A DNA stretch of 64,000 bases. Source: an uncultured Opitutia bacterium (GTDB lineage: Bacteria > Verrucomicrobiota > Verrucomicrobiia > Opitutales > Opitutaceae). Of this stretch, positions 7,216 through 44,856 are shown one piece after another. Where the stretch lies: contig CAIUWA010000016.1 of the NCBI GenBank assembly GCA_903902745.1, forward strand, positions 124,001-188,000, written 5' to 3'. The stretch's first letter is position 1. Each line of letters opens with the position of its first letter. The translations under genes were made by a program, and so were the position numbers. The notes below the pieces were generated by a model. That model did no database searches, had not been told where the DNA came from, and worked only from the letters and a program-made list of their open reading frames with translations.

Positions 7216-10200
7216 CTATCGCTCGAGGGTCGCGGCCATCAAGCCGATCACCACGTCGTTCGCCAGCGTACGGAGGGTGAGCGATTGCAGCTCCCGCCCG
7301 GGTTCGAGCGGAAGCGCGAGCACCGTCGCCGCGCCACCCGGCACGGCGCGTCCCTGACCCTGGAACGCGGTTTCATCGAGGAGGCGCACGCGTCCGGTCT
7401 GCAGGTCGACGCGCGGTGGCAGGGCGCCCGGCCGCGCGAAGGAAAAATCATCGATGAAATAATCCTGGTCGATCGGCCACCAGTTGTCGGGATTGCGGAG
7501 CGCGAGGCGGGCGTGGCCGCCGTCGCGGTAATTCACGACGATCTCCCCGTTGTCGAGATGGCTCTGCATCCAGTAAGTCGAGCCCGCCATGAGCAGATAA
7601 ACCTGCTGCGCGTGGCCGCCGAGCGGCACCGTCACCTCGCGCGGGTAGTTGTCCCATTGCGAGGTAAACACGATGTTCTTCGCCTCGCCCGGCCCCGGCG
7701 TGGCCAGCGGCACGCCATTCGGCAGCATGATCCGTCCGCCCTGCGCCGCGGCCGCCGCGCGCAGGCCGGCATCGTTGATGTCGGGCCGCGCGTTGAACGA
7801 CCCGGCCCAGCCGCCGATGCCCTGCTTGGGCAACGCCAGGGAGACGAAGGGCGAGCGCGGCGCGCGGTACTCGTTGCGGAAAATCTGCGTGACGCGGTCG
7901 TTGAATGCGGCCGAGAGGTCGACCGACTCCCATTTTTGAGCAGCTGGAAGCTTTGTGGTCCAGTCGCCCCCCATCCCCTCCGGCCGGGGCCGGGCGGGTG
8001 GCGGAGTCGCCGCGGGGCGCCACCAGCTCATCTGTCCCTGCCTGGCCGGGGAAAAGGCCACGGCGCCCGCCGGTCCCGCCGCCGTCTCCGGCACACCGCC
8101 GGTCCACGAGATGATCACGTCCTGGCGCGCCGCCGCGTCCGCGGTGATCTCGATGCGCGGTTCGCCGACCGCATCCTCGATCACGCGCCAGGCACCCGGC
8201 CGGCCGTTCACCGTCACCCCGGCCACCTGGTCGCGCCGCGCCACGACCTGCAGCCGCAGCTTTTGCGAAGCGCCAAATCTGGGTTCGACCGCATAGGTGT
8301 CGACCAGTCCGTCGCGGCGGAAGGTGAAGGTGAGATTCGGGTGCCGCAGATTCGCGTGATCCCATTGCGCGGGAAATCCCGGCACGATCCGCAGTTCGCC
8401 CGCCAGTGCGTCCGGCTTCACGCCAAACAAACCCTCGATCAGCGCGCGCGACAGCACGCCGCCGCCATCGGCGAAGTCGCGCTGCGATTCACGGCGATAG
8501 ACATCGAGATAGTTCATCGTGCCGATGTCGCCCGGGCACATCCCCAGGTACATGCTGGCGAGCAGCGCGCCCTTGGTGAGGCGGAACGCCTCATCGGCCC
8601 GGCCCGCCTGCCAGTAGCCGAGGGCGGTGTGCGCGATCTCGGCCAGGACGACGTTGTTGACCGACCACGAGTATGGCATCCAGTCGGACGTGGCCACGAC
8701 GTGATAATCGTCGTCCGCCGGCACGCCCGGGCCGCGGATCGGCAAATGGGGAATCTGCGTGTCGACCTGCCGCGTCATCTGCCACGCCTCCTGCGGCGTC
8801 GGCACCTCGGAATCGATCGTATGATAAAACGACCACACGGCGGCGTCCGGATGCACCAGCTGCCGGCCGAGGTAGTCCTTGTACTCGGCGAACCCGCCGT
8901 CGGGGAGCCACAGGAGTTCGCGCATGGCCCGCGCGATCAGCGCGGCCTCGCATTCGTAGGGCGCGTCATCGTGCCCGAGCAGGCGCGCGAGCCGCGCCGC
9001 CATCTTGTTGTGATAATAGTTGTAGGCCGATCCATGGGTCGTGCCGCCGCCGCCATACTGGATGTCGTCGCCGGCCCAGATGACCGTGTAGGCCTCGTAG
9101 AGCGGCAGCTTTTCCGGGCCGTATTCCCGGCGGAACAGCCGGCGTTCCCATGCGAGGTGCCGCTCGATCACCGGCCACATCTGCCGCGCGAACGCGCGGT
9201 CGCCGGTCCACAGCAGGTGACGGAACACCGCGTCGATGTAGACGGTATTCATGTCGTAGTGGGAATTCGAGATGTCGCCGTTGCTGTGCAGCGCCGCCTC
9301 GCTCCGCGCGAGATTCGAGGCCTCGTCGGGTGGTGGAATTTTTTCCGGGACCGGATCGGTGTTCTGCCGCGTCGCCCAAGAGGAAAAATGCCGGCGCGCC
9401 CGGTCGTGCCAGCCGAGCTCGTCCATCACATAGGGCCCGCGCCAGCCGAGCAGCTTCGTCCGCCAGGCAATCGCCCCGTGCATCACCGCGCCCTGCGTTT
9501 CGTCCCACACGCCGTCGGCCGCGATGTTCAGCGCCGGAACCGCGGCATTGATGTACGGATCCGGCGTCTCGACCGTGACCTGTTCGCGCAAGGCCTGAAA
9601 ATGGGCGTCGGTTTCGGCGAAAACGCGCGGCAGGTCGGCGGCGGTGTAAGCGGGCAGGAAACTCACCTCCGGCGGCCGGCGGTCGAGACCCGGGCGGTCG
9701 GCCGTGACCTCGAGATAGACGGGCAGCTCCTCCTCCTTGACCGGAACGTCGCTGGTGCGCTGCACGGCGAGAAACAAGGGCGTCCCCCCGGTCCGCAAAC
9801 CCGCGCGGCCCACGACGACGGGCGCGGCCGTCGCGCCGCCGGACGAGGCCAGCAGCTCGGCGAGGGACGACCACTTCGCCGCATCGGCGACCGCCAGCTG
9901 CGCCTCGACGGGTCCGGTTCCCACCAGCGTCGCCAGGGGATGGTGCAAGGTGAACGCGCCGCCCTGGATCGTGAAGGTGTCCTCGCGGCAATATTCGGGC
10001 CGCAGTTGGAACTGCGGCGTGAGCGAGGCGCCGCCGGCCAGGTCCCCGTCGCGGCTGCCGCGCTGGCCGTTCAAGCCGCCATAGGCCCAGACGAGCTCGA
10101 GGTCGGACGGCGTGCCGGCCACCGCCACGCGCAGGATGAGCCCGTCCGTCGCGGCCAGCGCGAGCACGGTGAGATTCAGGACGCCCTCCGCGCCCAGCAG

Positions 10201-10599
10201 CGGATCGCGAATCTCATAGAGCATCATGCCCGGCCGATAGCGGGTGACGATCCGCTGCGCGTCGTGGAGCCACTTCACCGCGGACGCCGTCCTGAGCCCA
10301 AGCCGCAAATTTCCCCCGCGACCCGGCAGGTAAAAGGTGAACTCGGGCCTGTCGCCGGCGTCGAAGCGCGCCGCAGTGTTCCTCCCATAAAGCGGCCGGT
10401 TGAAAAATTCCGCACCGTTTTCGATCACAAAATCGGTGCCGTCCGGGCGGTAACGGAGCGGGCGCCCGATGTTATCGACGAGATTGGGCCGCGGGCCGGA
10501 CTGCGCGATCGCTCCCGGACCGGCCGCGATGAGCAGCAAGCCCGACACGGAGGCGAGGGCGCCACGGATCCAAGACAAGCGACGAAGGAAAAAGCGCAT
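7216..10599 (-). CDS. DUF4450 family protein, putative six-hairpin glycosidase (copy 1)
   Basis: The 1127-residue protein has a signal peptide (about residues 1-32, ending AIAQS). The N-terminal DUF4450 region is recognised by NIGRPLRYRPDGTDFVIENG and FFNRPLYGRNTAARFDAGD (shown separately). From about residue 350 it has Trp- and Tyr-rich helices (ELGWHDRARRHF, LLWTGDRAFARQMWP, AYNYYHNKMAARLARLLG) typical of an (alpha/alpha)6 barrel. C-terminal beta domains follow. The biochemical activity is not known to me. The setting suggests action on an RG-I side chain. A paralogue with the same architecture lies at 31486-35088. Long open frames on the opposite strand here are compositional shadows. Confidence 0.8.
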   Translation of the reverse strand: MRFFLRRLSWIRGALASVSGLLLIAAGPGAIAQSGPRPNLVDNIGRPLRYRPDGTDFVIENGAEFFNRPLYGRNTAARFDAGDRPEFTFYLPGRGGNLRLGLRTASAVKWLHDAQRIVTRYRPGMMLYEIRDPLLGAEGVLNLTVLALAATDGLILRVAVAGTPSDLELVWAYGGLNGQRGSRDGDLAGGASLTPQFQLRPEYCREDTFTIQGGAFTLHHPLATLVGTGPVEAQLAVADAAKWSSLAELLASSGGATAAPVVVGRAGLRTGGTPLFLAVQRTSDVPVKEEELPVYLEVTADRPGLDRRPPEVSFLPAYTAADLPRVFAETDAHFQALREQVTVETPDPYINAAVPALNIAADGVWDETQGAVMHGAIAWRTKLLGWRGPYVMDELGWHDRARRHFSSWATRQNTDPVPEKIPPPDEASNLARSEAALHSNGDISNSHYDMNTVYIDAVFRHLLWTGDRAFARQMWPVIERHLAWERRLFRREYGPEKLPLYEAYTVIWAGDDIQYGGGGTTHGSAYNYYHNKMAARLARLLGHDDAPYECEAALIARAMRELLWLPDGGFAEYKDYLGRQLVHPDAAVWSFYHTIDSEVPTPQEAWQMTRQVDTQIPHLPIRGPGVPADDDYHVVATSDWMPYSWSVNNVVLAEIAHTALGYWQAGRADEAFRLTKGALLASMYLGMCPGDIGTMNYLDVYRRESQRDFADGGGVLSRALIEGLFGVKPDALAGELRIVPGFPAQWDHANLRHPNLTFTFRRDGLVDTYAVEPRFGASQKLRLQVVARRDQVAGVTVNGRPGAWRVIEDAVGEPRIEITADAAARQDVIISWTGGVPETAAGPAGAVAFSPARQGQMSWWRPAATPPPARPRPEGMGGDWTTKLPAAQKWESVDLSAAFNDRVTQIFRNEYRAPRSPFVSLALPKQGIGGWAGSFNARPDINDAGLRAAAAAQGGRIMLPNGVPLATPGPGEAKNIVFTSQWDNYPREVTVPLGGHAQQVYLLMAGSTYWMQSHLDNGEIVVNYRDGGHARLALRNPDNWWPIDQDYFIDDFSFARPGALPPRVDLQTGRVRLLDETAFQGQGRAVPGGAATVLALPLEPGRELQSLTLRTLANDVVIGLMAATLER

Positions 10600-10615
10600 A
10601 ATGAAGTCTACCGGA

Positions 10616-10696
10616 TCGACGTAGCGGGCAAGGTGACGTGGCTGGGTTTGGTGGGATCGGCTCGAACCAGCCTCCTTGCGTCAGCTGCTACATCGA
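10616..10696. repeat. intergenic inverted repeat, 'GTAGC' family
   Basis: TCGACGTAGC at 10616-10625 pairs with GCTGCTACATCGA at 10684-10696, and the interior pairs GGCTGG with CCAGCC. It is related in sequence to the nested repeat at 58249-58405. It lies just upstream of the DUF4450 gene. Confidence 0.65.
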
Positions 10697-20831: not shown

Positions 20832-23270
20832 CTACTTCTGCACCTTGGGAATGCCGATCTTCACGTCGAAGTCGTAGAGGCTGATCATCATGAATTCCTG
20901 GACCTTGGTCCACGCCTGCAGGCGGGCCTTGGGCAGGCCGCGGGTGAACTCACCCGAGATTTCAAGATATTCGGGCGGGTTGCCGGCCTTGCTCAGGGCC
21001 GAGCGCAGGGCCGAAGACACGCCGGCCTCGCCGCCGGCGTCGTAGGGATCCTGCAGGAGGAGGACCGGCTTGGTGAACAACTCCGGATGTTGCGCCGGCG
21101 AAAGGGCGGCGAGACGGGCCTTGTCGTGACCAAAATACCAGCGACGAAGCTCGCTGGCAAAATTCACGTATTCGGGCGGGAACGGCGGGGGTGGCGGTCC
21201 ACCGCGTCCGCCCGCCGTCGCGGGGGCCGCGGCGGTGCCGGCGGCATCCGGCTGGGTGCCACTCACCGGGTCGGGGTCTCCATTGGTCGACGGAGCGGCA
21301 TCCAGCGCGCCCATGCCCTGCTCGGCAAAGGATGGCACCAGCAGGCCCCGCTGCGCCAGCGGGCCACTCTGCCCCGGGCCGAAATTGATCATGAAATCCT
21401 GCGTCTGCTTCATGGTGCTGTTCGCCACCTCTCCGCGATCGATGGCCTCCCGCCAGCTCTCGGGCTTGCGGCTCCACTGCTCCAAGTCGGTCGGGGCGTT
21501 GATCGCGACGGCGCAGCGAAAATCATCCGGGTAAAGCTGCAGCGCGCGCAGGGCCAGGTAACCGCCGAAGCCCTGGCCGAGCAGCGCGACCCGCTTGCGG
21601 TCGACATTGTAGCGGGCCTCCACCCACGTGATCGCGGCGCGGATGTCCGCGACGGGAATGCCGTCGAGACTCTCCCGCAGGGCCTCGCGAAACCGCGTGC
21701 CGAAGCCGGCGGAGCCGCGATAGTTCACCTGCAGCACGAAAAAGCCCATGGCCGCGAACATCTGCGCGTCGTGGTTGAAGCCGGGGGCATCGCGGTCCCA
21801 CGGCCCGTCATGACACCAGACCAGCAGCGGCGGCTGGGTTTTCAGCGGTGTCTTGGGCACGGTGAGGTAGCCGGTGAGATGAACCCCCTCGGGCGTATCG
21901 AAGGCAAAGGTCGTGGCGGCGTTGGTCTGGTCCGGATCCACCGCCGGCGCGCGGCGGACGATCTGCACGAGCCGGTTTTCGGCGCGATGATAGAGATAGT
22001 AGCGTCCGGGATCGCCCACACTGGAGGCGAAGACAAGAAACCGCGTGCGCGAATCATCCCAGTCGATGAGCTGCACGCTGCGGCCGGGAAACTTGCCGTC
22101 GAGCGTCGCCTGGAGGCCAGCCAGTTCGGGATCCAGCCATTGCGCCGCCGGCTCCAGGCCGGCGACACGGACGCCGACGAGCCGGCGCTGCTTCTGGTCA
22201 AACACCAGGGCCGGGAGGGAGCCGGACGTTTCAAATCCCGCGAGATCGAACGCGGGATGCTCGACCGCCAGGGCCGTGCGCTTCGCCGTGCGGAGGTCGA
22301 GCGCGTAAAGTCCGTAGGTGTCGCGGCCGGCGTTGGAGGCGAGATAGAGGATGTCCGGGTCGTAGTCGAAACCGACGGGAAAAGTGCGGGTTCCGAGATA
22401 ATTGGCCGGGGTGACGGCATCGCCGAAGAGTTTGTCCAGCTCCTTGCTGGCCCGCCGGCCGGGAGACGGCAGGGAAATGAAGCTCTGCCCGGCCCGGTCG
22501 ATGGGGTCCCAGATTTCGATGCGGGCCTGGCCATTCCGGTCGTACAGCAGACGGCCATTGACGTCCTGCTCGTGCAGCACCTGCCGCTGGCCCGTGCGGA
22601 CATTGATGCGAAACAAGCCGGTCGCCACGCGACCGTAAAGGGAGGGATCGGCGCTGCCGGAGCCCAACGCCGGACGAACCGCCTCGACCAGGATGGAGTC
22701 CTGCACATCCGCCGCCAGGTCGATCACGCGGGGCTGACGCGGCAGCCTTTCGGTGCTGCCGTCCGGCAGCGGGAACAACAACACGAGATTTTCCTCGTCA
22801 GCCAGTTTCATCAAATGCCGGCCGTCGGCATCCACCGCATAGACCACGGTGACATTGGCGGGCTCATGCACGCGCCGCACATCGACCTCGTCAAGCGAGG
22901 GCATCTCGGCGGCAAAGACCAGCCGGCCGGGGCCGACCCAGCGGAAAAACGGCACGCGCATCGGCGACTTCTCGTGGTCCCGCGAATCGCGGATGACCAC
23001 ATCCCGGCCCACCGGCAGGACGGCCTTTTTGGTCGGATCGTCCACATCGATGATGACGATCATGGTCAGTTCTTCCTCGTGCACGGTGTAGGCGAGGTGA
23101 TGTCCGTCCGGGGCCAGCGTGGCCTGCTGCGTCCGGTCCGGCTGCAGCCACGCGGCCAGATCGCGGGAGGTCGGCGCGGCGGCGTGCGCGGGAGAGGCGA
23201 GCCACCCCAAGCAGGCCGGGAGCAGCAGCGGCAATAAAGTCCGACCACTAAATCGAGGATGGCTGTTCAT
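20832..23270 (-). CDS. S9 prolyl-oligopeptidase-fold protein lacking catalytic Ser and His (predicted pseudoenzyme)
   Basis: The 812-residue protein has a signal peptide (about residues 1-30), a beta-propeller-like N-terminal half and a C-terminal alpha/beta-hydrolase domain. The hydrolase landmarks are in order: PLLVWCHDGPWDRD (oxyanion region), VLQVNYRGSAGFG, then LLGQGFGGYLALRAL where S9 enzymes have GxSxGG. The Ser position is Gly567 (codon GGC at 21570-21572). The Asp region is present (LLLQDPYDAGG), but the usual GHGF-type His motif near the end reads GEFTRGLP. A Pro/Gly/Ala-rich insert (about residues 640-690) separates the Ser and Asp regions. Peptidase activity is therefore unlikely. 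It overlaps the upstream gene by 4 nt (ATGA). Confidence 0.88.
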   Translation of the reverse strand: MNSHPRFSGRTLLPLLLPACLGWLASPAHAAAPTSRDLAAWLQPDRTQQATLAPDGHHLAYTVHEEELTMIVIIDVDDPTKKAVLPVGRDVVIRDSRDHEKSPMRVPFFRWVGPGRLVFAAEMPSLDEVDVRRVHEPANVTVVYAVDADGRHLMKLADEENLVLLFPLPDGSTERLPRQPRVIDLAADVQDSILVEAVRPALGSGSADPSLYGRVATGLFRINVRTGQRQVLHEQDVNGRLLYDRNGQARIEIWDPIDRAGQSFISLPSPGRRASKELDKLFGDAVTPANYLGTRTFPVGFDYDPDILYLASNAGRDTYGLYALDLRTAKRTALAVEHPAFDLAGFETSGSLPALVFDQKQRRLVGVRVAGLEPAAQWLDPELAGLQATLDGKFPGRSVQLIDWDDSRTRFLVFASSVGDPGRYYLYHRAENRLVQIVRRAPAVDPDQTNAATTFAFDTPEGVHLTGYLTVPKTPLKTQPPLLVWCHDGPWDRDAPGFNHDAQMFAAMGFFVLQVNYRGSAGFGTRFREALRESLDGIPVADIRAAITWVEARYNVDRKRVALLGQGFGGYLALRALQLYPDDFRCAVAINAPTDLEQWSRKPESWREAIDRGEVANSTMKQTQDFMINFGPGQSGPLAQRGLLVPSFAEQGMGALDAAPSTNGDPDPVSGTQPDAAGTAAAPATAGGRGGPPPPPFPPEYVNFASELRRWYFGHDKARLAALSPAQHPELFTKPVLLLQDPYDAGGEAGVSSALRSALSKAGNPPEYLEISGEFTRGLPKARLQAWTKVQEFMMISLYDFDVKIGIPKVQK

Positions 23271-24982
23271 GGCGCGGCTGCGGGTTGAGCCATGGCGGCC
23301 AGATTCACGCGCAGTTGTTCAAAGCGGGTTTGGAAGGCGGGGTCAGTTCCGACCTTCAGGCCGCGAACAATCAATGCCTCGGCCTCGGGCTTGAAGCCCT
23401 GCCGGGCGTTAAGCCAAGCGGCCTGGTAAATGAGAGGGGCGTTGCGCGGGAAATAGGCCACGCCTTCGTCCAGCATGGCCAGATTCTTGCGCGTGAACGC
23501 CGGGACGCTGCGGGCCCATACGTCGGCGGTCAGGGCATACATCTCCAGGAGCGCCGGCGGCTGCCGCCAGGCGGTGACCAGGGGCTGGAGCACGCTGGTC
23601 GCCTGGGCTGCACTGAGGCGGCCGCCGGGCGCGTCGGGGGCTTTCTGCGCCTCGGCATAGCGCAGTCGGGCCAGTTCGTAACTGGCGCGCGGCCGCACCA
23701 CCCCGCCCTGCACCGCGGCCTCGAGGAACTTGCGCGCACCAGCGTCATTGCCGGCGTCGCACTCGCAGAGGCCGATCACGGCCTGTAGGCGCGGATCGCG
23801 TTCGCCCTTGTCATAGGCACGCATGAGCGTGCGCCGCGCCTGTTCGGCGTATTTTGGCACCAGCTGCGGAAACCGGGGCTTGACCCAGCCGATTTCCAGG
23901 CGCTCGAGGTCGCCCTTGATCCGCGCGATCTCGAGATCCGTGGCCGGGCGTGGCGTCAGGCGCGGCAGCGCGGCCAGCTTGCCGGGCTTGAGGCGGAGCG
24001 TGCCGAGCACGGCGTTGGAAAGATAGTCGCTCATGCGTTCCTGCGCATCCACGTAGCCCAGGCCGAAGCATTCCCGGAAGACCTCCTCGGTGACCGGCTC
24101 CGCGCTGGCGCGCGCGACAAACTTCCAGAGCGCCGGCTGGCGCGGATGATCGTCACCCTCCATCGCCCAGCGCAGGAACAGGGCGGCCTGGCCCCGCCAG
24201 AGCGCTGCATCGGCGCCCGGTCCCGGCGAGGAAAAAAACTCGGCCAGCGGCAGCAGCGACCGCGGATAATCCGGATCCCTTTTCAGATTTTTGGTTTCCG
24301 CGGCGGAAACCCACTCAACGGGACTCAAGGTGATTGGATTCCGCTCGAAATCCCCCGCGTCATACAGATCCACAAAACCTTCCACGAACCACGCGGGCGG
24401 GGACGGCGTCCGGCTCTTGATTGCGTACCGGATATAATCGGGCGTCAGGGCCAGCTGGGCCTGTGCAAAGCCCCCCTCCTCCAGAATGAAAAACGCCGAG
24501 GTCGCATCCCGGTCGGTGAGCCGCAAGTTGGGCATGGAACGGTAGCCGACGCCCCGGCTGGACCGGCGGCTCTCCCCGCCGGCATCTTTCCCGTCCCGCA
24601 ACAGGTCCGCCACCACTTCCTGCGCGACCACCGGCTTGCTTTCCTCGCTGTAAAGCACCGCGGTGTCCGGCACGGCGCGCTTCGCCTGCAGGTCGGGGGG
24701 CAACATCACGGCAAGCAACTGCTGCAGCCGGTACATCTCCTCCACCAGGTGCAGGGTTGTGCCATCGCGGCAGCGCGAGAGCACCTCCAGTCCGGGAATT
24801 TCCACATATCGCCAGGGCGGTCCGTTCACCTGCTCCGCCACCATGAGCGGCGGCAGCTCGACAAACCGATCGGGCGCCGGCGCGTCCTCCGCCGCCTGTC
24901 CACGGCCGGCAGCCAGCCCGGCGATTGCCAGCAGGCAGAGGGGCAGACGGAGGGGCGACATCAGGGGGTGGGACGTTGTCAT
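23267..24982 (-). CDS. secreted protein of unknown function, gluzincin-like region without HExxH, TPR-like C-terminus
   Basis: The 571-residue protein has a signal peptide (about residues 1-30). The centre has PPAWFVEGFVDLYD (residues 195-208), which resembles the segment after the zinc motif in peptidase-MA/DUF1570-type proteins (P-x-W-x-x-E-G). However, the place where HExxH should stand reads YIRYA (183-187), so zinc binding is not expected. Residues 350-560 are helical and TPR-like (MRAYDKGERDPRLQAVIG, then EARKFLEAAV-type helices). Its stop overlaps the start of the S9-like gene by 4 nt, so the two are almost certainly co-translated. The function is unknown; the pairing suggests a joint binding or scaffolding role. 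Confidence 0.75.
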   Translation of the reverse strand: MTTSHPLMSPLRLPLCLLAIAGLAAGRGQAAEDAPAPDRFVELPPLMVAEQVNGPPWRYVEIPGLEVLSRCRDGTTLHLVEEMYRLQQLLAVMLPPDLQAKRAVPDTAVLYSEESKPVVAQEVVADLLRDGKDAGGESRRSSRGVGYRSMPNLRLTDRDATSAFFILEEGGFAQAQLALTPDYIRYAIKSRTPSPPAWFVEGFVDLYDAGDFERNPITLSPVEWVSAAETKNLKRDPDYPRSLLPLAEFFSSPGPGADAALWRGQAALFLRWAMEGDDHPRQPALWKFVARASAEPVTEEVFRECFGLGYVDAQERMSDYLSNAVLGTLRLKPGKLAALPRLTPRPATDLEIARIKGDLERLEIGWVKPRFPQLVPKYAEQARRTLMRAYDKGERDPRLQAVIGLCECDAGNDAGARKFLEAAVQGGVVRPRASYELARLRYAEAQKAPDAPGGRLSAAQATSVLQPLVTAWRQPPALLEMYALTADVWARSVPAFTRKNLAMLDEGVAYFPRNAPLIYQAAWLNARQGFKPEAEALIVRGLKVGTDPAFQTRFEQLRVNLAAMAQPAAAP

Positions 24983-31485: not shown

Positions 31486-34400
31486 CTATCGTGCGAGGGT
31501 CAGGCCCAGCAGGCCGATCACGACCTCGTTGGACAGCGGCTTGATCGTCAGCGAGAAGAGCTGCTTGGCGGGATCGAGCGGCAGGTCGAGGATCGTGGCG
31601 GCTCCGCCGACGGGCTTGCTGGTGGCGTCGGGGACGTAGATTTTTCCGGTGCCGAGTTCCACGCGCAACGGCCGCGGACCCGGGACCTGGAAGGCATAAT
31701 CGTCCGTGAAATAATCCCGCTCGATCGGCGTCCAGTTCGTGGGATTGCGCAGCAGCAGGCGCTCACTCGTGCCGTCCCAGTAGCCCACGGTCACCTCCGC
31801 GTTGTCGATCTGGGTCTGCATCGGGTTGGTCGTGCCGGTCAGCAGCAGATAGGCGTGCCGGGCCCGGCCTGAGACCTGGAGGGAGATTTCCTTCGGGTAA
31901 TGGTCCCAGAGCGAAGTGAACGCGGCGTTCTTGGCCCCCTCTTGTGGCGGCATTTGAAAACGCACGCCGGACGGCAGGGCCAATCCGCCAGGGCCGCCGG
32001 CCACCCGCCGCAACCCCGAGTCGTCGACCGCGAAGGTGCGCGAGAAAGTATCCCACGTGCCGAGCCCCTGCTTGGGCACCTGGAGCGAAGTGAAGGGGGA
32101 GCGCGGCGAGAGATATTCGTTTTTGAAAATCTGCGTGACCGGATCGTTGTAGGCCGATCCCAGGTCCACTGGCCGCCAAACGGTTTCCGCCGGGGCGGGA
32201 ATCTGCCAGTTCACCACGTTATCAGCGGCCGCGCCGGCCTCGGCCAGGTCCACTCGCACCCGGATCGTGCCCGGCAACAATCCGGCCGAGGTAAACGCGA
32301 TCTCGGTCGATTCGCCCAGCGCGGGAATCTTGATGGTGGCGGTGCTTTTCTGGCCGCCAACCTCCAGCGTGGCCCAGCGCTCGATGGCCGTGGCCGTGTT
32401 GTTGCGCACGCGGAAACGCACGGTCTGCCCGTCCTGTTTGGCCGAGGGAATAATTTGCAGGGGCAGGCGGACCTCAAAGTCGACCGGCATCCACCAGGTC
32501 AGGTCGTCCTGCCGGACCTTCGCGAATACCGTGTGCCAGCCGGGCAGGCCGTTGACCACGCCGGTGAGTTCCTTGTCCCGGGGGGCGGCGGACTTCAGCG
32601 CATTCTGCGGGTCGAGAATCTCGAGGACCGTGGCGGGTGCGAAATCCATCCGGAACGGCCGGTCGAGCACGGTCATTGTCACCGGACGGGGACCCACGGT
32701 GGCGCCGCCAACCCAGCGGATACTCACCTCGTAGCGCGGGGCGGCCACCGTGGTCACCACCTCGATGACCGGGGCGCCAATCGCATCGGCGACGATGGTC
32801 CAGGAGGCCGGCTTGCCGTTCACCTGCACGGCGGCCACCCGTTCGCCGCGCGCCACGGAGCGCAGGCGCAGGCGCATGGGTTTGGAAAATTTCGGCTCGA
32901 TGACGAAGCGCTCCGACTGGCTGTTATCGAGGCGGTAATTATAGCTCACGTCCGGCGTGCGGATTGAGGCGTAGGCCCACTCGCGCGGGAAGCCGGGGCG
33001 GATCAGGAGCTCTCCGGCGAGCGCATCGGGCACGATGCCGAACAGGCCCTCGACCAACCCGCGCGACATCATGCCGGTGGTGTCACCGAAATCGCGGTAG
33101 GTTTCGCGGCGGTAAGCATCGTACTGGGAAAGATTCGGCAGATTACCCGGCGAGGTTCCGAGGTACATGGAGTCAAGGATCATGCCCTTCCAGAGTTTCC
33201 AGGCCTCGTCGGTCCGGCCCGCCTGCCAGTAGGCCAGCGCAGTGTGTGCGAGCTCGGCTGGCACGACGTTGTTAATGCTCCATTCGTAGGGGACCCAGTT
33301 GCTCGTTGGCAGCACGTACCAGTCGCCCGCGGGGACGCCGGCCCCGCGCACGGGGATGTGCGCGATCTGCGTGTCGATGTAGCGCAGCGCCTGGTAGGCT
33401 TGGAAGGCATCGGGCACCTGCGAGTCCATGGCATGGTAAGCCGTCCACAACGCGGGCGCGGGATGCACGCGCTTCAGGCCAAGCACATCCTTGTATTCGG
33501 CGTACCAGCCGCGGTCGGGAAGCCAGAGGTCATGCTGCATGGCGTCGGCAATCCACCCCGCCTCCTGGTCGTAGGGCTTGGGATCCTGGCCGATCAGTTT
33601 GGCAATGCGTGAAGCCATGCGGTTGTGCCAGAGGTTGTACGCCGTGGCGTGAGCGGCGCCGCCGCCGCCGTAGCCGAGGCCGTCGCTCGCCCAGATGGCG
33701 GCGTAGGCCTCGTACAGTCCGTCCCGGTCGAACAGGCGTTTCTCATAGGCGAGGTGGCGCTGAAGCACCGGCCACATCTTGCGCGCAAATTCAAGGTCGC
33801 CCGTCCAAAGCAGGTGCCGCAGCAGCGCGTCGATGAACACGAGGTTCATGTCGTAGTGCGCCGCCGGGATGCTCCCGAAGCTGTGCAGCGACTTCCAATC
33901 GTCGGTGGCCAGGTTCTTGACCGGGTCCGCCTGCGGCGCGGGCGTGTCCTTTTCGTCGGTGTTCTGCTTCGCCGCCCAGAATTCGAAATGCTGCCGCGCC
34001 CGGTCGTGCCAGCCGAGCTCGTCGAGCAGATACGGGCCGCGCCAGCCGAGCAGCGGCTGGCGCCATGCCACGTTGCCGTGCATCACGGTAGGGGCCTGCC
34101 AGAGTGCGTCGGCGGACACCGCAATCGCGTCGGCACTGGCGTTGATGAAGGGATCGGGCGTCTCGACCGCGAGCTGTCCGATGACCGCCAGGCGGGCGCG
34201 GTCGGCGAGTTTGTAAGCGAAGGGCAGGCCCTCGGGTCCGGGCAGAACCTTCCCGCCCCCGCGCTGGATCATCACGTGGACCGGCTGGCCGCTCCGGACG
34301 GTGACCCGGCCCACCAGCACGGGATGGTCGGTGCCCTTTGAGGCCAGCAAGCCGTCAACCGTCGCCAGCGCCGCGGCATCACCGACGAGCAGTCGCCCCT

Positions 34401-35088
34401 CGGCGGGGCCGACTCCCTGCAAGACGCCGCCCTTGCCCTTGTACTCGAACGCCGCGCCGGTAACCGCGCAGGTGCTGTCGGCATAATCCTCCAGCTGAAA
34501 ATTCCACGCCGCTCCCGGATCGCGGCCCCCCAGCAGGTCGCCGCCGCGTTCGTTCACCGCCGTCCCGCTGGCGCCGCCAAAAGCCCAGACGAATTCCACC
34601 GGGGCGCCGCGCGTCACTTCCACATAAAGAATCAACCCTTCGCTGTCTTTCAGGGGGAGGGCCGTCACCTTGAGCGCGCTGTCGCCGATCGCGGAATCGA
34701 CGACATCGTACACCATCGAGCCCGGCCGGTAGCGCGCGAGCACCCGCTGGGCCTTGGCCAGCCAGTTGGAGCCCTTGGGGGAGACAAAACCCAGCCGCAA
34801 CAACCCGCCCTTGCGTGGCAGATAAAAGGCAAAATCCGGCCGGTCGCCGGCATCGACGCGGAAGGCGGTGTGCGGACCGTAGAGCGGGCGGTTGAAATTG
34901 GCCGTGCCGTTTTCGATCAAGAAATCCTGGCCATCCGGCCGGTAGCGCAGCGGCCGGTCGATGTTCGCCGCCGTGTTCGGGGTTTGCGCCCGGGCCGGCA
35001 GGCCGGCAACCAGCAGCGCCAGCAACACCCCGGCCCACCATCTGGTCGGGAATGGGCCGGACGGCAGGAGGGGATGGATCGATTTCAT
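31486..35088 (-). CDS. DUF4450 family protein, putative six-hairpin glycosidase (copy 2)
   Basis: The 1200-residue protein has a signal peptide (about residues 1-34, ending PARAQT). It shows the same domain order as the 7216-10599 protein: NIDRPLRYRPDGQDFLIENG and FNRPLYGPHTAFRVDAGD at the N terminus, then the helical barrel (ELGWHDRARQHFEFW, HLLWTGDLEFARKMWPVLQ, AYNLWHNRMASRIAKLIG), then C-terminal beta domains. It differs by an extra beta region of roughly 100 residues (about 830-960). The activity is not known; two divergent copies in one pectin locus suggest two related linkages. It is the first gene of the minus-strand locus, so the main promoter may lie in 35089-35400. Confidence 0.8.
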   Translation of the reverse strand: MKSIHPLLPSGPFPTRWWAGVLLALLVAGLPARAQTPNTAANIDRPLRYRPDGQDFLIENGTANFNRPLYGPHTAFRVDAGDRPDFAFYLPRKGGLLRLGFVSPKGSNWLAKAQRVLARYRPGSMVYDVVDSAIGDSALKVTALPLKDSEGLILYVEVTRGAPVEFVWAFGGASGTAVNERGGDLLGGRDPGAAWNFQLEDYADSTCAVTGAAFEYKGKGGVLQGVGPAEGRLLVGDAAALATVDGLLASKGTDHPVLVGRVTVRSGQPVHVMIQRGGGKVLPGPEGLPFAYKLADRARLAVIGQLAVETPDPFINASADAIAVSADALWQAPTVMHGNVAWRQPLLGWRGPYLLDELGWHDRARQHFEFWAAKQNTDEKDTPAPQADPVKNLATDDWKSLHSFGSIPAAHYDMNLVFIDALLRHLLWTGDLEFARKMWPVLQRHLAYEKRLFDRDGLYEAYAAIWASDGLGYGGGGAAHATAYNLWHNRMASRIAKLIGQDPKPYDQEAGWIADAMQHDLWLPDRGWYAEYKDVLGLKRVHPAPALWTAYHAMDSQVPDAFQAYQALRYIDTQIAHIPVRGAGVPAGDWYVLPTSNWVPYEWSINNVVPAELAHTALAYWQAGRTDEAWKLWKGMILDSMYLGTSPGNLPNLSQYDAYRRETYRDFGDTTGMMSRGLVEGLFGIVPDALAGELLIRPGFPREWAYASIRTPDVSYNYRLDNSQSERFVIEPKFSKPMRLRLRSVARGERVAAVQVNGKPASWTIVADAIGAPVIEVVTTVAAPRYEVSIRWVGGATVGPRPVTMTVLDRPFRMDFAPATVLEILDPQNALKSAAPRDKELTGVVNGLPGWHTVFAKVRQDDLTWWMPVDFEVRLPLQIIPSAKQDGQTVRFRVRNNTATAIERWATLEVGGQKSTATIKIPALGESTEIAFTSAGLLPGTIRVRVDLAEAGAAADNVVNWQIPAPAETVWRPVDLGSAYNDPVTQIFKNEYLSPRSPFTSLQVPKQGLGTWDTFSRTFAVDDSGLRRVAGGPGGLALPSGVRFQMPPQEGAKNAAFTSLWDHYPKEISLQVSGRARHAYLLLTGTTNPMQTQIDNAEVTVGYWDGTSERLLLRNPTNWTPIERDYFTDDYAFQVPGPRPLRVELGTGKIYVPDATSKPVGGAATILDLPLDPAKQLFSLTIKPLSNEVVIGLLGLTLAR

Positions 35089-35674
35089 GGCTCGGACAAC
35101 GGAATGCGCTCCGGGAAAATTGGGGCCAATCCGTCTTCAGGAAAGGCTAATTTTCTGCTTTCGACCGCCGTGGCGGAATCCGGCCGGCACCACCCCACGG
35201 AGGCCCGAAAGCCCGGCGCGGGAGATTTTCTCATTCCACCGTCCCTTCACGGTTCAAACTGATTTGTCTCACCGGGCAGACCAACCCAATCCGGGTTTTT
35301 CATTTCGTCATGCTTCACAAGGCAGCAGGCGTCCGCCGGGCGCAAAGTGTCCGGGGAGTTCCGGCCTGGATGGATTCCAATGTTTTTTCGTGTCCGCGCG
35401 GGTTAGTTTTCAGCTTCTTAATTCTTTGATCTCCCTTTTAACTTTTTCCGCCCCGTCTTCTGCCCCCCGACAGCACGATCCCCCACCTCCGCGATGAGCG
35501 CATGGCACCCCTTGATTTTCATATCCCGCCCGACCGTCGCCGGGCTCTTCCCCGCGGGGCCGCAAGCCGGCCTGTCGGCCCGTCCGATCGTTCCGCGCAA
35601 AGGCGGCGTCCAGCTCGCCAGCCTCAGCCATAGCCAGAAGCTCCGCCCCATGCCCAACCCAAAGTCGGAATAAC
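35089..35674. other. 586-bp intergenic region between divergent genes, no gene supported
   Basis: It separates the DUF4450 gene (leftward) from the sensor kinase gene (rightward), so it should hold both promoters. The short frames inside (for example 35410-35631) have no start signal, no recognisable domain and arginine/glycine-rich shadow composition. I see no clear operator, riboswitch or repeat. The segment 35400-35460 is more AT-rich than its surroundings and is the best place to look for a promoter. Confidence 0.5.
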
Positions 35675-38122
35675 GTGGCGCCTCATCAAAGTTCTATTTT
35701 AACCCCGCACCTTGGGCTTGCCCTGGCCTTCATGCTGGCGGGCGTCTTCGCCGATTCCAGCCGGGCTGGGCCGCTTCGAGTTGGCATCGACATCGACGGC
35801 GAGCCGATGACTTTCGTGGATTCCAAGGGCGTGCCTTCGGGCTTCGCCGTCGAGATCATGAACGGCATCGCCCTCGAGCTGGGCTTCGAGGTGACCTATG
35901 TCCCCAAGCACTGGCCGGAAATGCTTGCGGATTTCCAGGCTGGCCAGACCGACGCGCTGGCCAACATCACTTATACCGTCCAGCGCTCGGCCTTCATTGA
36001 TTTTTCCGTCCCGCACATCGTGATGAATGGCGCCATCTTCGTGCGGAAGGGGGACCACTCCATTGGGAGCCTGAGCGACCTGCGGGATCACCGGGTCGCG
36101 GTCAAACCCGGCGGAGCACCCTACGAATATCTGGTCGCCCATGGCTGGGCGCAACACGTCGTCCCCACCGCCACGCTGCGTGACTCCCTCCGCGCCGTCA
36201 TCGAGGGCCGGGCGGATGCCGCCCTGGATGCGCGCATCATGGGCCTGAAAAACATCCGCGACGAGCATCTGACCCATCTTGAAGCCGCCGATGTGGCGGT
36301 GACCGATTTCGCCCAGCAGCTCCATATTGGCCTTCATCCCGGCAAGTCCGCCGACATCGCCCGGATCAACGAGGGTCTGGCCCGCCTGCATGCCAACGGC
36401 ACATATGACCGCATCTATGAAAAATGGATTGATCCGCTGGACCCCCGCGGCCTCCGGCTCCGGGATTTGCGGCCGTATCTCTTCCCGGCCGCCCTCGGTT
36501 TGGCCATGATCATCGGCGCCTTCCTTTGGCAGCGGCGGCTGCTCCGGCATCTCGCCCGGCAGGCAGAGGCCCTCCGCCTGAGCGAGGAGCAGCTGACCCT
36601 CGTGTTGGAAGGCAGTGAGGATGGATTCTGGGACTGGGATCTGCGCACCGGCCGCATCGAGCGGAGCAAGCGCTGGGCCGCCATGCTCGGTTACACCCCC
36701 GCCGAGATCGAGCCCACCTTCGACGGGGGCATGAAGCTGGTGCACCCGGACGATCGGCGTACCAGTGAATCGTTCCAGTCGCTCCGCGGTGCCAGCGAGA
36801 CCGGCCGCTACAACATTGAATACCGCATGCAGACGAAATCCGGCGAGTGGCGCTGGATCCTGGGGCGCTGCAAGGTCGTCACCCGCGCCCCCGATGGCAT
36901 CCCCCTGCGCATCGCTGGCACCCACACTGACATCACCGACCGCAAACTGCTGGAGGAGGAACAGGAGAAGCTGAACCTGAAGATGCTCGAGACGCAGAAA
37001 CTCGAGAGCCTTGGTGTGCTCGCCGGCGGCATTGCTCATGATTTTAACAACCTCCTCACGGTCATCATTGCCAACGCCAGCCTGCTGCGCACCGAGAATG
37101 ACAACATCGGCGAACGGGCCTCGCAGCTAGCGGACATCGAAACCGCCGGGCACCGGGCCGCCGACCTCTGCCGCCAGATGCTCGCCTACGCCGGCAAGGG
37201 CCAATTTGTCGTCTCGCAAGTCGATGTGGGCGGGCTCGTGCGTGAGACGATCGATCTGCTGAGGGTTTCGGTCAGCAAAAAGGCCCATCTCATCCTGAAC
37301 CTCACGCCCAGCCAGCTCGCCATCGAGGCCGACGCTTCCCAGATCCAGCAGGTGGTGATGAACCTGGTGATCAATGCCTCCGACGCGCTCGGCGATGGCG
37401 CCGGTGAGATCCGGCTGACAACCCGGCGGGGCCGGCCTGAGCCGGTGCCCCACGGGGTCGCGCATTTCTTCGATCTGCCCGAGGGGGAGTGTGCCTGCCT
37501 TGAGGTCTCAGATACCGGCCGCGGCATGGATCCCGGCACGCTGGCGCGGATCTTTGATCCCTTTTTCACGACCAAGTTCACCGGTCGCGGCCTCGGCCTC
37601 GCGGCGGTGCTCGGCATCATCCGGACGTGCCGCGGCGCCCTGACGGTTGAAAGCTCACCCTCCCGTGGCACGATTTTCCGGCTGTTTCTGCCACTCGCTC
37701 CCACCACGCCGCCTGCCTCCTCGGCCTTGCCGACCCCTTCCAATGAGCAATCCCGCCGCGGCACCATTCTCGTGGTCGATGATGAGCCTACCGTCCTTGC
37801 AACGGTCAAATTACTGCTCGGCAACCTGGGCTACCCGGTAGTGACGGCAACCGACGGGCAGGAAGCCGTGGATCAATTCCGGGCGGCTCCCGAAGGTTTC
37901 ATGGCGGTATTGCTCGACCTCACCATGCCCCGGCTAAACGGGGCGGAGGCGCTGCGGGAGATTCGCCGGCTCAATTCATCCGTGCCCGTTCTCGTGATGA
38001 GCGGCTTCAGCGAGCAGGATGTGCTCAACCGGCTGAAGGGCCTGGGCCCCGTCGAGATCCTGCACAAGCCCTTCAACCGCGAAGCGTTCATCACCCGCCT
38101 CACCCGGATCACCGCGCGCTGA
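35675..38122 (+). CDS. hybrid sensor histidine kinase with periplasmic solute-binding sensor and receiver
   Basis: The 815-residue protein starts at GTG 35675, since the signal/anchor helix begins almost at once. Domains in order: an SBP_bac_3-type ligand-binding domain (about 30-265, starting LRVGIDIDGEPM), one membrane helix (YLFPAALGLAMIIGAFLW), a PAS/PAC domain (about 310-430, WDWDLRTGRIERS), a dimerisation helix with phospho-acceptor His in GGIAHDFNNLL, an ATPase domain (NLVINASDALG, then DTGRGMD, GRGLGLAAV) and a C-terminal receiver (VVDDEPT, phospho-acceptor Asp in VLLDLTMPR, Lys in LHKPF). No DNA-binding output is attached, so a separate phosphotransfer or response partner is needed; none is adjacent. 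The periplasmic domain could sense a sugar acid or amino acid. Confidence 0.92.
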   Translation: MAPHQSSILTPHLGLALAFMLAGVFADSSRAGPLRVGIDIDGEPMTFVDSKGVPSGFAVEIMNGIALELGFEVTYVPKHWPEMLADFQAGQTDALANITYTVQRSAFIDFSVPHIVMNGAIFVRKGDHSIGSLSDLRDHRVAVKPGGAPYEYLVAHGWAQHVVPTATLRDSLRAVIEGRADAALDARIMGLKNIRDEHLTHLEAADVAVTDFAQQLHIGLHPGKSADIARINEGLARLHANGTYDRIYEKWIDPLDPRGLRLRDLRPYLFPAALGLAMIIGAFLWQRRLLRHLARQAEALRLSEEQLTLVLEGSEDGFWDWDLRTGRIERSKRWAAMLGYTPAEIEPTFDGGMKLVHPDDRRTSESFQSLRGASETGRYNIEYRMQTKSGEWRWILGRCKVVTRAPDGIPLRIAGTHTDITDRKLLEEEQEKLNLKMLETQKLESLGVLAGGIAHDFNNLLTVIIANASLLRTENDNIGERASQLADIETAGHRAADLCRQMLAYAGKGQFVVSQVDVGGLVRETIDLLRVSVSKKAHLILNLTPSQLAIEADASQIQQVVMNLVINASDALGDGAGEIRLTTRRGRPEPVPHGVAHFFDLPEGECACLEVSDTGRGMDPGTLARIFDPFFTTKFTGRGLGLAAVLGIIRTCRGALTVESSPSRGTIFRLFLPLAPTTPPASSALPTPSNEQSRRGTILVVDDEPTVLATVKLLLGNLGYPVVTATDGQEAVDQFRAAPEGFMAVLLDLTMPRLNGAEALREIRRLNSSVPVLVMSGFSEQDVLNRLKGLGPVEILHKPFNREAFITRLTRITAR

Positions 38123-40805: not shown

Positions 40806-43800
40806 TTAGAACGTAAACGTTGAGGTCAGGAAGAAAGTCCGGGGATCGTTGATGCGGTACTGGGCCGGCGAGCCATCCGACTCATAGAGGATGGCGGTCA
40901 ACCCACCACTCTCCGTGAGCGACCGGACATTAAGCTGGAATTTTGCCTTCACGCTCTTGCCAAACATCGGCAGGCGCGTGGAGTAGGAAACCCAGGCATC
41001 CATGTTGAACAAGGCCGGCGTTGTCTGCGGCTTGGTGAGATCCGGATAGGAAATCAGGTTCTGCGTCGTGGTCGGGTGGGTGAACGTGGCCGGATCCATG
41101 TTGGAGTAGTAGCCGGAGACAGCGTTGGAGGACCAACGCATGGAGCCGCCCACCGTCCAGCCCTTCAATCTTCCTTCCGAAAACGCATAGTTGCTGATGA
41201 TATTGGCCGAATATTCCCGCTGGCTGGGCGTACGCTGGTTTTGCAGCGTGATCAGGGAATAGAGCTGCGAGTCGACGATGCCGTAATAGGTGCTCCGCGG
41301 GGTGCTCGTCGCGCCCGCGGCGTTGGATCCGGCGTCCGCGGTGAAGCCGTAGCCATTCCAGAAGGAACCCAGGTACAGCTTGCTGCCGCTATTCAAGGTA
41401 TAGACGGTCGGCAAGTCCGGCGCCGACAGGTTCTGCCAGTAGTTCAGGCGGCTGCCGGGGGACGGGTTGGTGGTGTCGCCGGCGCCGTAGAGCCATTTCG
41501 TAATCTCACTGGAGGCATTGCTGTAGCTCGAATACTGCTGTCCCCCGGTCACCTTGATGTTCCAGTTGCGCGTGGGATTGTAGATGATCGAGGCCTCCAT
41601 GCCCTTCGACTTCAAATCATTCGTGGCCGCGATGATACCGCTGTTCCAACTCTTCTGGACCACTCCGCCTTCATTGACGTCATACGCATTGAGGAAGGAG
41701 TTGGGGCCCTCGGTCAGCTTGTTGATCGCGATCTGCTCCGCGGTGGTCAGGGGGGTGGTGGTATTGTTATTGAAGAACTGATCGGACGGATTCTGGCCGT
41801 CCCGAATGCGCACGACCTGGGTCGCCCACGCATACAACGAGCTGTTGTCGATGCGGGCGGCGCGGCCGACGGCGATTGGCACAATGGAGGCGTGTTCAGC
41901 CGTGGATTTGTACCAGTTGAGGCTCCAGGACAGCTTGTTGTTAAACATGCTGCCACGGACGCCGTAGTCAGAGCCCCCGCCCGACGGCTTGGGCAAGCGG
42001 GCGCCAAAGAAGTCGGTCTGGACCGTCGTCGGCGCGGTGAAATTTTCCGAATGGTTGTAGTTGAAAGCCAAGCCGCGAACAAAGTCCCAGAGGCGGCTTC
42101 CCCGCTCGACCCGGGCGTCGATCCATTTCCAATTCCCGAACGGCCGCACGACTCCACCCAGCGTGGTGGTGTCGCCGCCTGCATCCAACGGGCTCGGGTC
42201 GAAATAACCGAATTGCTGGATATTGTTGGCAAAACCGTTTGTGAACCGGTCCGCGGTCGCAATGCCGGTGGCCCGGGTCCAGATCCTGACCTTGTCATAG
42301 CGGGTGCCGAGCAACGGAATGATCCGATCGCTCCAGAGGCTGCCCTGGTAGGCGAAGCTGGTCGACGTGATAATATTGTTTTGGGGGCTGCCGCCGGCCA
42401 GGTTGGAACCGATGCTCATGGTGGTTTTCTGCCACGTGTTGGTCGAGTTCCAGTCGTAATAGCCCATGGACACCTTGCCGGGTCCGCCGAAGCTTGGCTC
42501 ACCGACGGGTTGCGAGCCCTTGGTGATGGCCCCGTTACTTCCGTCGCCTACGTAGTAGTGGCGCTCGAGATTGTTGGAGCCGGAAAAAGTGAAGTTGTTT
42601 TTGATGGGCGGATTCTGGTTGGGCAGAAACCGGGGATCCCCGCCATCATAGGAGAGGTTGAAGGAATAATTATCGACCCAGTCCGTCTGCTTGCTCGCCA
42701 GGCCCACGAGGCGGTGCTTGCCCAGATAGCGGGTCCAGCCCTCCCGTTTGGTGAAATCGTAATCATACGCCAGCAACGCGCGAAGACTGTTGTTCTTTTC
42801 AGGGGCGTACCTCGTGATCATTTGATAATCATAAGTGTACGGATGGCCGAAATAGGGGTTGGGGGTTCCATCCATCAGCTTGGTGTTGGGATCCACCTGG
42901 ACCCGCTCGAGTTGGTTCCCCGAGCCTACCCCGTAATGATCCCATTCCGTCGCTTCCTGACGGAACCAGCCAAGCTGCAGGTTCAGGTGATTGCCGAGCC
43001 GCTGGTTGAGTTCCAAGTGAAAGGTCTTGTTCCCGGTCTCGCCGTAGTTGCTGCCCGCAACATTGTACTTCGTGTAATCGTAGAGCGCCCGGTTGGTGAT
43101 ACCGCGCTCATAAAACGTGGTATAGCCCGTGGCGCCCGTGGAAGGGGCCGGAGGCGTGGCGGTCGCCTGGGTCGTGATCATCATCACCTCATTCTGCGCG
43201 ATCCACTGCTGCAGGGTCCGCGAAGCCGCGGCGGGGATGGGAGCCGAGCCATTGGTGTTCGCGCCCGAGCCACCGCTGGAAAACCAGGCACCGACGAGCT
43301 TGCCGTTGTCGATCAGAAAGGTGTTGTGGGTTTCCGGGGTGAAGGAAGGAATATAGAAGGCCGAGCTTGAGGTGGTGTAAGCGGCGGATCCATTGGCCGT
43401 GTAGCCCTGAGCGGCGAGCGCCGGCGTAAAGCGCGGATCCTGCGTCGAGTTCAGGAACGGCCCCGTGACCGTGCCGTTAGCGAAGGTGATGGTCTGTGCG
43501 ACGGGATCCCAGCCGGGCCGGCCTGAACTGAGCCAGTTGCTGATCTCGTCAAGCGGCGCGACGAAATTTGGGGTATGGGCCTTGTTGTTGAAGTGCTCGA
43601 AGTCGGCGGTGATCTTGGTCGAAGACCACGGCTGGAAGGTGAGCGCGGCGTACTGACGACGGGTGATATTCGACGAAGGCTTCCGCGCGTACTCCGTGTC
43701 ATCGTAAAGTCCGGCCACATAAAGCGCCACCTTGCGGCCAAGGGGGACGTTGGTGTTCAAACTCACGCGATAGGAACCATAATTGTCGAAGCGCGTGCTC

Positions 43801-44561: not shown

Positions 44562-44856
44562 GGTAAGGTCAGCTTGGTTTGGTCAAAATCAGGAGGTGTT
44601 TGCCTGAAAATAATTCTGCCGCATCCAAGGTTCGGATGCAGTTACGGGGGGTAGTAGGGGTAGCTTATCGCTCTAGTGGGGCGCAGCTTTATAGGGACGT
44701 CCCCTTCAAATAGGGCCGGAGTCCGGCCGCTAGCGACGCTGAGTTTGTTCATATCAATGAATGAAGTTGGCGCTCCGCGGTCCCAAGGACCAGTTGTTTG
44801 CGGGGTTGACCTGTCAAAATCATCCCCGCCCACCGTGGTCGCCGCGCATTGAAAAT
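44562..44856. promoter_or_regulatory. 295-bp upstream region of the TonB receptor gene with several palindromes
   Basis: It must contain the receptor promoter. Visible elements, left to right: GCATCC/GGATGC hairpin (44621-44639), a run of G-rich steps (44645-44662), palindrome GGGACGTCCC (44694-44703) and GGCCGGA/TCCGGCC hairpin (44714-44728). Which of these is an operator is not clear. No second gene is supported here. Confidence 0.45.

Follow-up and report, generated by a model that had tools for sequence, protein, structure and literature searches.

Pseudopeptidases are already known as accessory subunits. DPP6 and DPP10, whose S9 fold carries an inactive or peptidase-like annotation, are accessory subunits of Kv4 channels; both were among the PDB sequence matches of the S9-like protein described here, but they are eukaryotic membrane proteins whose partner is an ion channel, whereas ours is an exported bacterial protein whose gene accompanies that of a second protein, the product of ORF A. 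A gluzincin-type fold within a noncatalytic complex occurs in TFIID, of which chains 7edx_B and 6mzc_B, which we take to be TAF2, an inactive M1-like gluzincin, matched the N-terminal domain of A with Z scores of 6.3 and 5.8, respectively. TAF2, however, belongs to a eukaryotic nuclear transcription factor, and to our knowledge it has neither a motif like that of TonB-dependent receptors (TBDTs) nor an S9 partner. In the M16B complex, the subunits are homologous to each other and the assembly still cuts, whereas the two proteins considered here both lack catalytic residues and have unrelated folds. The likeness to M16B lies in its layout, since, according to the accessible part of PMC11266112, these prokaryotic M16 homologues are made from a two-gene alpha/beta operon, that is, a bacterial operon for one active subunit and one pseudopeptidase subunit of peptidase fold. 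The same article reviews inactive metallopeptidase homologues, and the A-S9 pair is not described in its accessible part; nor was a description of the pair among the papers listed in our open-access literature searches, a scope outside which most subscription papers fall.

The window, by which we mean the whole 64,000-nucleotide stretch of an uncultured Opitutia genome that was analyzed, encodes A and the S9-like protein as overlapping neighbors (Table 1). A preliminary description of this DNA had called them two inactive-peptidase-like proteins in one unit, and this characterization is supported: the model of A is gluzincin-like, both proteins lack key catalytic residues, and the pair is tightly coupled elsewhere. 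Its ATGA overlap and the PAWFVEG stretch of A (residues 196 to 202) are likewise present, and its claim of signal peptides in both proteins agrees with the N-terminus of each, which is hydrophobic and closes with an AxA-type end (...GRGQA/AED in A and ...SPAHA/AAP in the S9-like protein), which by eye are putative Sec signal peptides.

Taken together, the pair points to an undescribed, noncutting complex, possibly tied to nutrient uptake. The reading that we favor, and to which we give about even confidence, is one heteromeric complex whose exported, noncatalytic subunits (pseudopeptidases) are A and the S9-like protein, with the N-terminal motif of A docked to the TonB machinery. Coupled translation would supply the two proteins in equal amounts, and after export they would bind each other in the periplasm, where their dead clefts and the TPR repeats would bind a ligand or a protein partner instead of cutting it; for the pair as a whole we infer a binding or scaffolding role. 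The motif of A would dock the complex to TonB/ExbBD, the machinery that reads this motif in TBDTs, and the complex would be an accessory of TonB-dependent uptake, in the window's genus serving a rhamnogalacturonan/arabinan locus. If this is true, cotranslated dead peptidases of two unrelated folds that stayed together when their gene order was reversed would represent an arrangement of a new kind; and if A docks to TonB, it would extend the TonB clients by a class distinct from the outer-membrane receptors and would provide a testable component of the uptake machinery of this group of Verrucomicrobiota.

Table 1. Features of ORF A and the S9-like gene, in window coordinates
Feature	Position	Strand	Basis
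ORF A, 571 aa	23267..24982	-	Putative signal peptide, then the VxLPPxxV motif, a degenerate gluzincin domain, and a TPR-like C-terminus
A residues 38-345, gluzincin-like domain	23948..24871	-	AlphaFold2 model; Foldseek and VIA-align matches
A residues 41-48, VELPPLMV, conserved N-terminal motif	24839..24862	-	TonB-box-like position; invariant residues and motif statistics
A residues 181-185, PDYIR, at the place of HExxH	24428..24442	-	Aligned to HEATH of L155:1238-3367
A residues 198-201, WFVE; E201 at the third zinc-ligand position	24380..24391	-	Alignment
A residues 346-566, TPR-like helical repeats	23285..23947	-	Family profiles and fold searches
ATGA, stop (TGA) of A overlapping start (ATG) of the S9-like gene	23267..23270	-	Sequence
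S9-like nonpeptidase homologue, 812 aa	20832..23270	-	Pfam Peptidase_S9 (PF00326), 1.9e-21, residues 497-608
S9 residues 565-570, GQGFGG; Gly567 replaces the nucleophile Ser of GxSxG	21561..21578	-	Alignment
S9 Phe775 at the catalytic His position	20946..20948	-	Alignment
YDFDVKIGIPKVQK, C-terminal tail of the S9-like protein, of a type typical for the clade of dead S9s	20835..20876	-	Tail pattern

Because sequence searches of A against Pfam, NCBIfam, and PDB gave weak TPR-type matches or nothing, the fold was taken from AlphaFold2 models of A, made at full length (pLDDT of 84.4, pTM of 0.84) and for residues 38 to 345 folded alone (pLDDT of 80.7). The best Foldseek matches listed for the full model are mostly TPR proteins. 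For the domain, rows 1 to 12 are all clostridial collagenases (E values of 2.8e-5 to 1.4e-3; best match, 7zoc at 2.8e-5), followed mainly by M1 aminopeptidases, with lugdulysin (M30), one M61 enzyme, and a few unrelated rows. Alignment with VIA-align gave Z scores of 7.1 to 8.1 (rmsd of 6.2 to 7.4) for the collagenases and of 7.1 for the M30 enzyme, the best Z score, 8.1 at an rmsd of 7.0, being middling by the tool's own scale. The Foldseek TM-scores are low (0.3 to 0.4), and the match to gluzincins is therefore at the superfamily level. By its model, then, the N-terminal domain of A is a degenerate gluzincin with the fold of clan MA(E), as the preliminary description had supposed. No gluzincin family is among the Pfam matches listed for 28 A members, and the window's A has no Pfam family, with only weak TPR matches at its C-terminus (E value of 0.15). 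TPR_14 and TPR_19 each match 22 of these 28 members at E values of ≤10 (the best at about 1e-5), and on these profiles and the full-length model the C-terminus is TPR-like, with predicted tandem helical repeats.

The sequence evidence agrees: a distant relative, L155:1238-3367, has a full site (HEATH...WLDEG) and scores 84 bits against the A-family profile; profile A2 finds the same place with an E value of 1.9e-8, in a match that starts just after HEATH. In an alignment of the A family (166 distinct ORFs, each 350 aa or longer), the window's A and this relative align at the site with no gaps between the two. The sequence of the window's A there is P181-D-Y-I-R185...E201, from which both His residues and the catalytic Glu are gone and in which the third-ligand Glu is kept; the combination of HExxH and third-ligand Glu by which gluzincins are recognized is thus absent from the window's A. 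The preliminary description was right about the loss of the site in A and two residues off in placing it at YIRYA, the site being PDYIR (residues 181 to 185) together with E201. This loss, along with the TPR-like C-terminus, separates A from the M9 collagenases and the M1, M61, and M30 gluzincins that are the best structural matches of its domain. An HE..H pattern at L209, considered as a second intact site, was rejected, as it sits in the C-terminal part, away from the site.

The partner belongs, on the sequence match of its catalytic domain, to peptidase family S9, but the Ser-Asp-His triad is not present in the window's protein, which has Gly567, Asp744, and Phe775 at these positions. We compared 79 distinct S9-like ORFs, of which 35 adjoin an A ORF and 44 do not. 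Gly replaces Ser in all 33 A-adjacent S9s that could be aligned at this position (2 of the 35 could not), and a full triad was found in none of the 35 (the same two being unalignable). The nucleophile is kept in 13 of the 44 S9s with no A neighbor, including L237, an ordinary S9 of the window's own genome. In a tree of 77 sequences, 61 dead S9s form a single clade (support of 0.958), and all 33 A-paired S9s placed in the tree fall within a subclade of 40 (support of 0.941), whose remaining 7 members, all from the genus g30, lack an adjoining A hit; three more S9s without the Ser lie outside the dead-S9 clade. A tail of the type YDFxVxxG, scored by pattern, ends 26 of the 35 A-paired S9s, 16 of the 28 S9s without A that score above 400 bits, and none of the 13 live S9s. 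Same-strand ORFs of at least 300 aa adjoining dead S9s without A showed no A-like P-x-W pattern among the matches listed. The g30 loci with dead S9s and no A neighbor are L210, L211, and L212; two of them, L210 and L212, have two successive dead S9s and, upstream of these, a third large ORF.

The N-terminal motif of A, in which L43, P44, P45, and V48 are invariant in 46 homologues, lies in a stretch modeled at low confidence. A search of the first 200 aa for its Pro form, VxLPPFxV, found it in 139 of the 166 A ORFs, 2 of 1,185 other genes, and none of the 79 S9s or 25 TBDT-like ORFs. A loose form is present in 141 of the 166 A ORFs (14 when shuffled), 18 of the 25 TBDT-like ORFs, 1 of the 79 S9s, and 65 of the 1,185 other genes (71 when shuffled). 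In the TBDTs of this lineage, the motif lies about 30 residues before the Plug domain, which is where the TonB box lies. The window's own genome has 17 Plug matches and 6 TonB_C matches, and among the 17 Plug proteins, 5 carry the strict motif, 2 carry the looser form by pattern, and several others carry variants seen by eye. The relative with the intact HExxH site is without the VxLPPFxV motif. An STN domain is present in five A relatives, four of them above the Pfam cutoff: L155:4801-7095, where it is N-terminal to the motif, and four others, which came from 10 scanned proteins, most of them selected within a single clade of unpaired A proteins whose N-termini are long. None of these five has an S9 partner, and no STN domain is among the matches listed for the 28 A members, S9-paired ones included. 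Neither the window's A nor the families listed for the 28 members include a match to Plug or the barrel.

On its position and resemblance, the motif may tentatively be viewed as a TonB-docking signal. A bolder formulation, which we likewise put forward as a conjecture with less than even prospects, is that A is a nonreceptor TonB client that gained a TBDT-type N-terminus (VxLPPFxV and sometimes STN) on the loss of catalysis and that, with a dead S9 whose relatives lie beside TBDTs, it would form a motif-docked, catalysis-free adaptor alongside outer-membrane uptake in the Opitutaceae.

The main competitor is a noncatalytic complex unrelated to TonB, in which VxLPPxxV would be an N-terminal strand or a sorting signal and the pair would act as a general periplasmic chaperone or scaffold; we consider this possible but doubtful. 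It would accommodate the TPR-like C-terminus of A, the short modeled strand (residues 39 to 43) that covers part of the motif, and the varied neighbors of the pair loci, where 77 neighboring proteins showed no dominant function among the best 25 of 115 families (PcRGLX, 4; GDSL, 3; ABC, 3; Plug, 3). It is at odds with the pre-Plug position of the same motif in TBDTs, its rarity in other genes, and the STN domain of some unpaired A relatives, which in L155:4801-7095 precedes the motif. Gene proximity can be cited on both sides: in a search with six TBDT seeds, at least two of which are themselves neighbors of dead S9s, a TBDT lies within 500 nt of just 2 of the 35 A-paired S9s, but also of 6 of the 31 dead S9s without A (and of none of the 13 live S9s), so that dead S9s can adjoin TBDTs where A is absent.

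Several observations were made in passing on these proteins. At L217, L218, L222, L225, and L227, a dead S9 gene immediately precedes a TBDT gene of the same strand; the four of these TBDTs that were scanned (L217, L222, L225, and L227) have CarboxypepD_reg and Plug domains. An EF-hand-like stretch, DxNxNGxLDxxE, was seen by eye shortly before VxLxPFxV in 5 of the 17 Plug proteins of the own genome (L280, which is window positions 40809 to 44582, L281, L283, L284, and L286). One A relative, L123:8899-11229, has a C-terminal PDZ domain, and just before it lies a separate PDZ ORF with the sequence VKLDPFEV (L123:7594-8313).

Loss of the known catalytic residues is compatible with a different chemistry, and the two proteins could be moonlighting enzymes rather than pseudoenzymes, with a novel site formed, for example, by D182 and E201 of A or by the S9-like protein without its Ser. 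The residues that might serve such a site are partly retained: E201 in the window's A (87 of the 166 A ORFs have a Glu there), Asp744 in the window's S9, and RE..H/R..E in one clade of A. Of the other key residues, the first His is kept in 5, the Glu in 57, and the second His in 19 of the 166 A ORFs, and all four (HEHE) are kept in 1, the relative L155:1238-3367. Among S9-paired A proteins, the site varies widely (PDRE, MDAA, ASRE, TNRE, and others), and the Asp and His positions vary among their S9 partners, which is unlike a conserved new site, and we consider this explanation improbable. In a part of one A clade, genes stand in tandem A-A arrangement, with mainly RE..H or K/RE..R and the Glu, an intermediate state; these loci (L162, L165, L166, L167, L169, L171, and L174, with further cases at L179, L185, L187, L190, L199, L204, and L206) are a second paired arrangement of pseudogluzincins.

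The reading of A and the S9-like protein as noncatalytic partners draws on how the two genes are kept together. That the pair would recur elsewhere, as the preliminary description anticipated, proved correct: for 35 distinct A ORFs there is a co-oriented S9-like ORF no more than 400 nt away, and these pairs belong to 26 genomes and 12 genera (by contig matching, with contig L087 unassigned), one of the paired S9s, at L149, being a weak match (66 bits). The S9 gene comes first in 32 of these pairs and A comes first in 3, all of them in the window's genus. Mere cotranscription, by which unrelated secreted proteins would stay together by descent with no interaction, has little to recommend it, for although 4-nt overlaps are not rare here (start codon at -4 in 93 of 827 other codirectional neighbors) and A occurs without S9 too, the overlap is found in 30 of the 35 pairs (the overlapping S9 being preferred where A has two), is kept in all 3 pairs with reversed gene order, and occurs in a family in which A-S9 pairs also stand in tandem (L089, L136, L139, and L175). 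The count becomes 29 of 35 if the most-overlapping neighbor is always taken and 30 of 39 across all A-S9 junctions.

Pairwise distances of A and S9 are correlated (r = 0.88; mirror tree, with none of 2,000 permutations as high), a value to which shared species history contributes. Within the window's genus, dN is 0.24 to 0.40 and dS is 0.76 to 0.97, and both genes are therefore under purifying selection there. Since the site losses recur in 35 conserved pairs and selection is purifying within the genus, the pairing of degenerate sites is more than chance. From coupling and coevolution alone, A and the S9-like protein probably form a complex.

Of the 166 A ORFs, 131 lack an adjoining S9, 35 of these being members of tandem A-A pairs and the other 96 being arranged in neither way; A can therefore act without S9. 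The proportion of paired ORFs, 35 of 166, is not a frequency, as the regions were picked from hits (100 A-hit regions, from the rows listed, and 40 S9-hit regions); the pair is present in 7 of 49 unselected loci. Of 200 genomes in the window's family, 115 have A homologues, as do 33 of its 49 genera. When 387 genomes across the phylum were searched by profile, with just three candidates scored per genome, 26 genomes gave matches, of which 23 belong to the same family and 1 to another family of the same order; in the other 2, the match covers the TPR part only. In these searches, A was nearly confined to the family of the window, which is Opitutaceae judging by the relatives that have names: the 49 A-bearing relatives are MAGs of Opitutaceae, Opitutus, Opitutae/Opitutia, Verrucomicrobiaceae, and other Verrucomicrobia.

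In the window, the pair is surrounded by GH39, GH43, GH51-type, GH35, PcRGLX, and GDSL genes, and the congeneric locus L069 has the same gene order, GDSL-GH43-GDSL-GDSL-A-S9. The placement of the pair inside a pectin locus, as first described, holds for the window and this congener and is mostly lost elsewhere. With genes in the neighborhood loci called by a codon-scored caller, a stretch of 6.5 kb around 23 of the 29 other S9-paired loci shows no homologue of any of 14 window genes, some of the 23 being truncated by contig ends. The other 6 have such a homologue, 4 of them by PcRGLX alone: a rhamnogalacturonan-exolyase homologue is nearby at four loci of another genus, and a GH43 homologue is nearby at one locus. 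A general link of the pair to pectin was rejected, as the context is mostly lost outside the window's genus. Many of the A genes that lack an S9 are preceded, on their upstream side, by a conserved oxidoreductase-like gene, among others, and we read the genes near unpaired A, from their sequences, as probably of the Gfo/Idh, DUF6807, and DUF481 types. The carbohydrate locus of the window also encodes two DUF4450 proteins (positions 7219 to 10680 and 31486 to 35088), and adjoining it is a hybrid histidine kinase with a solute-binding domain (positions 35516 to 38119), perhaps a sugar sensor.
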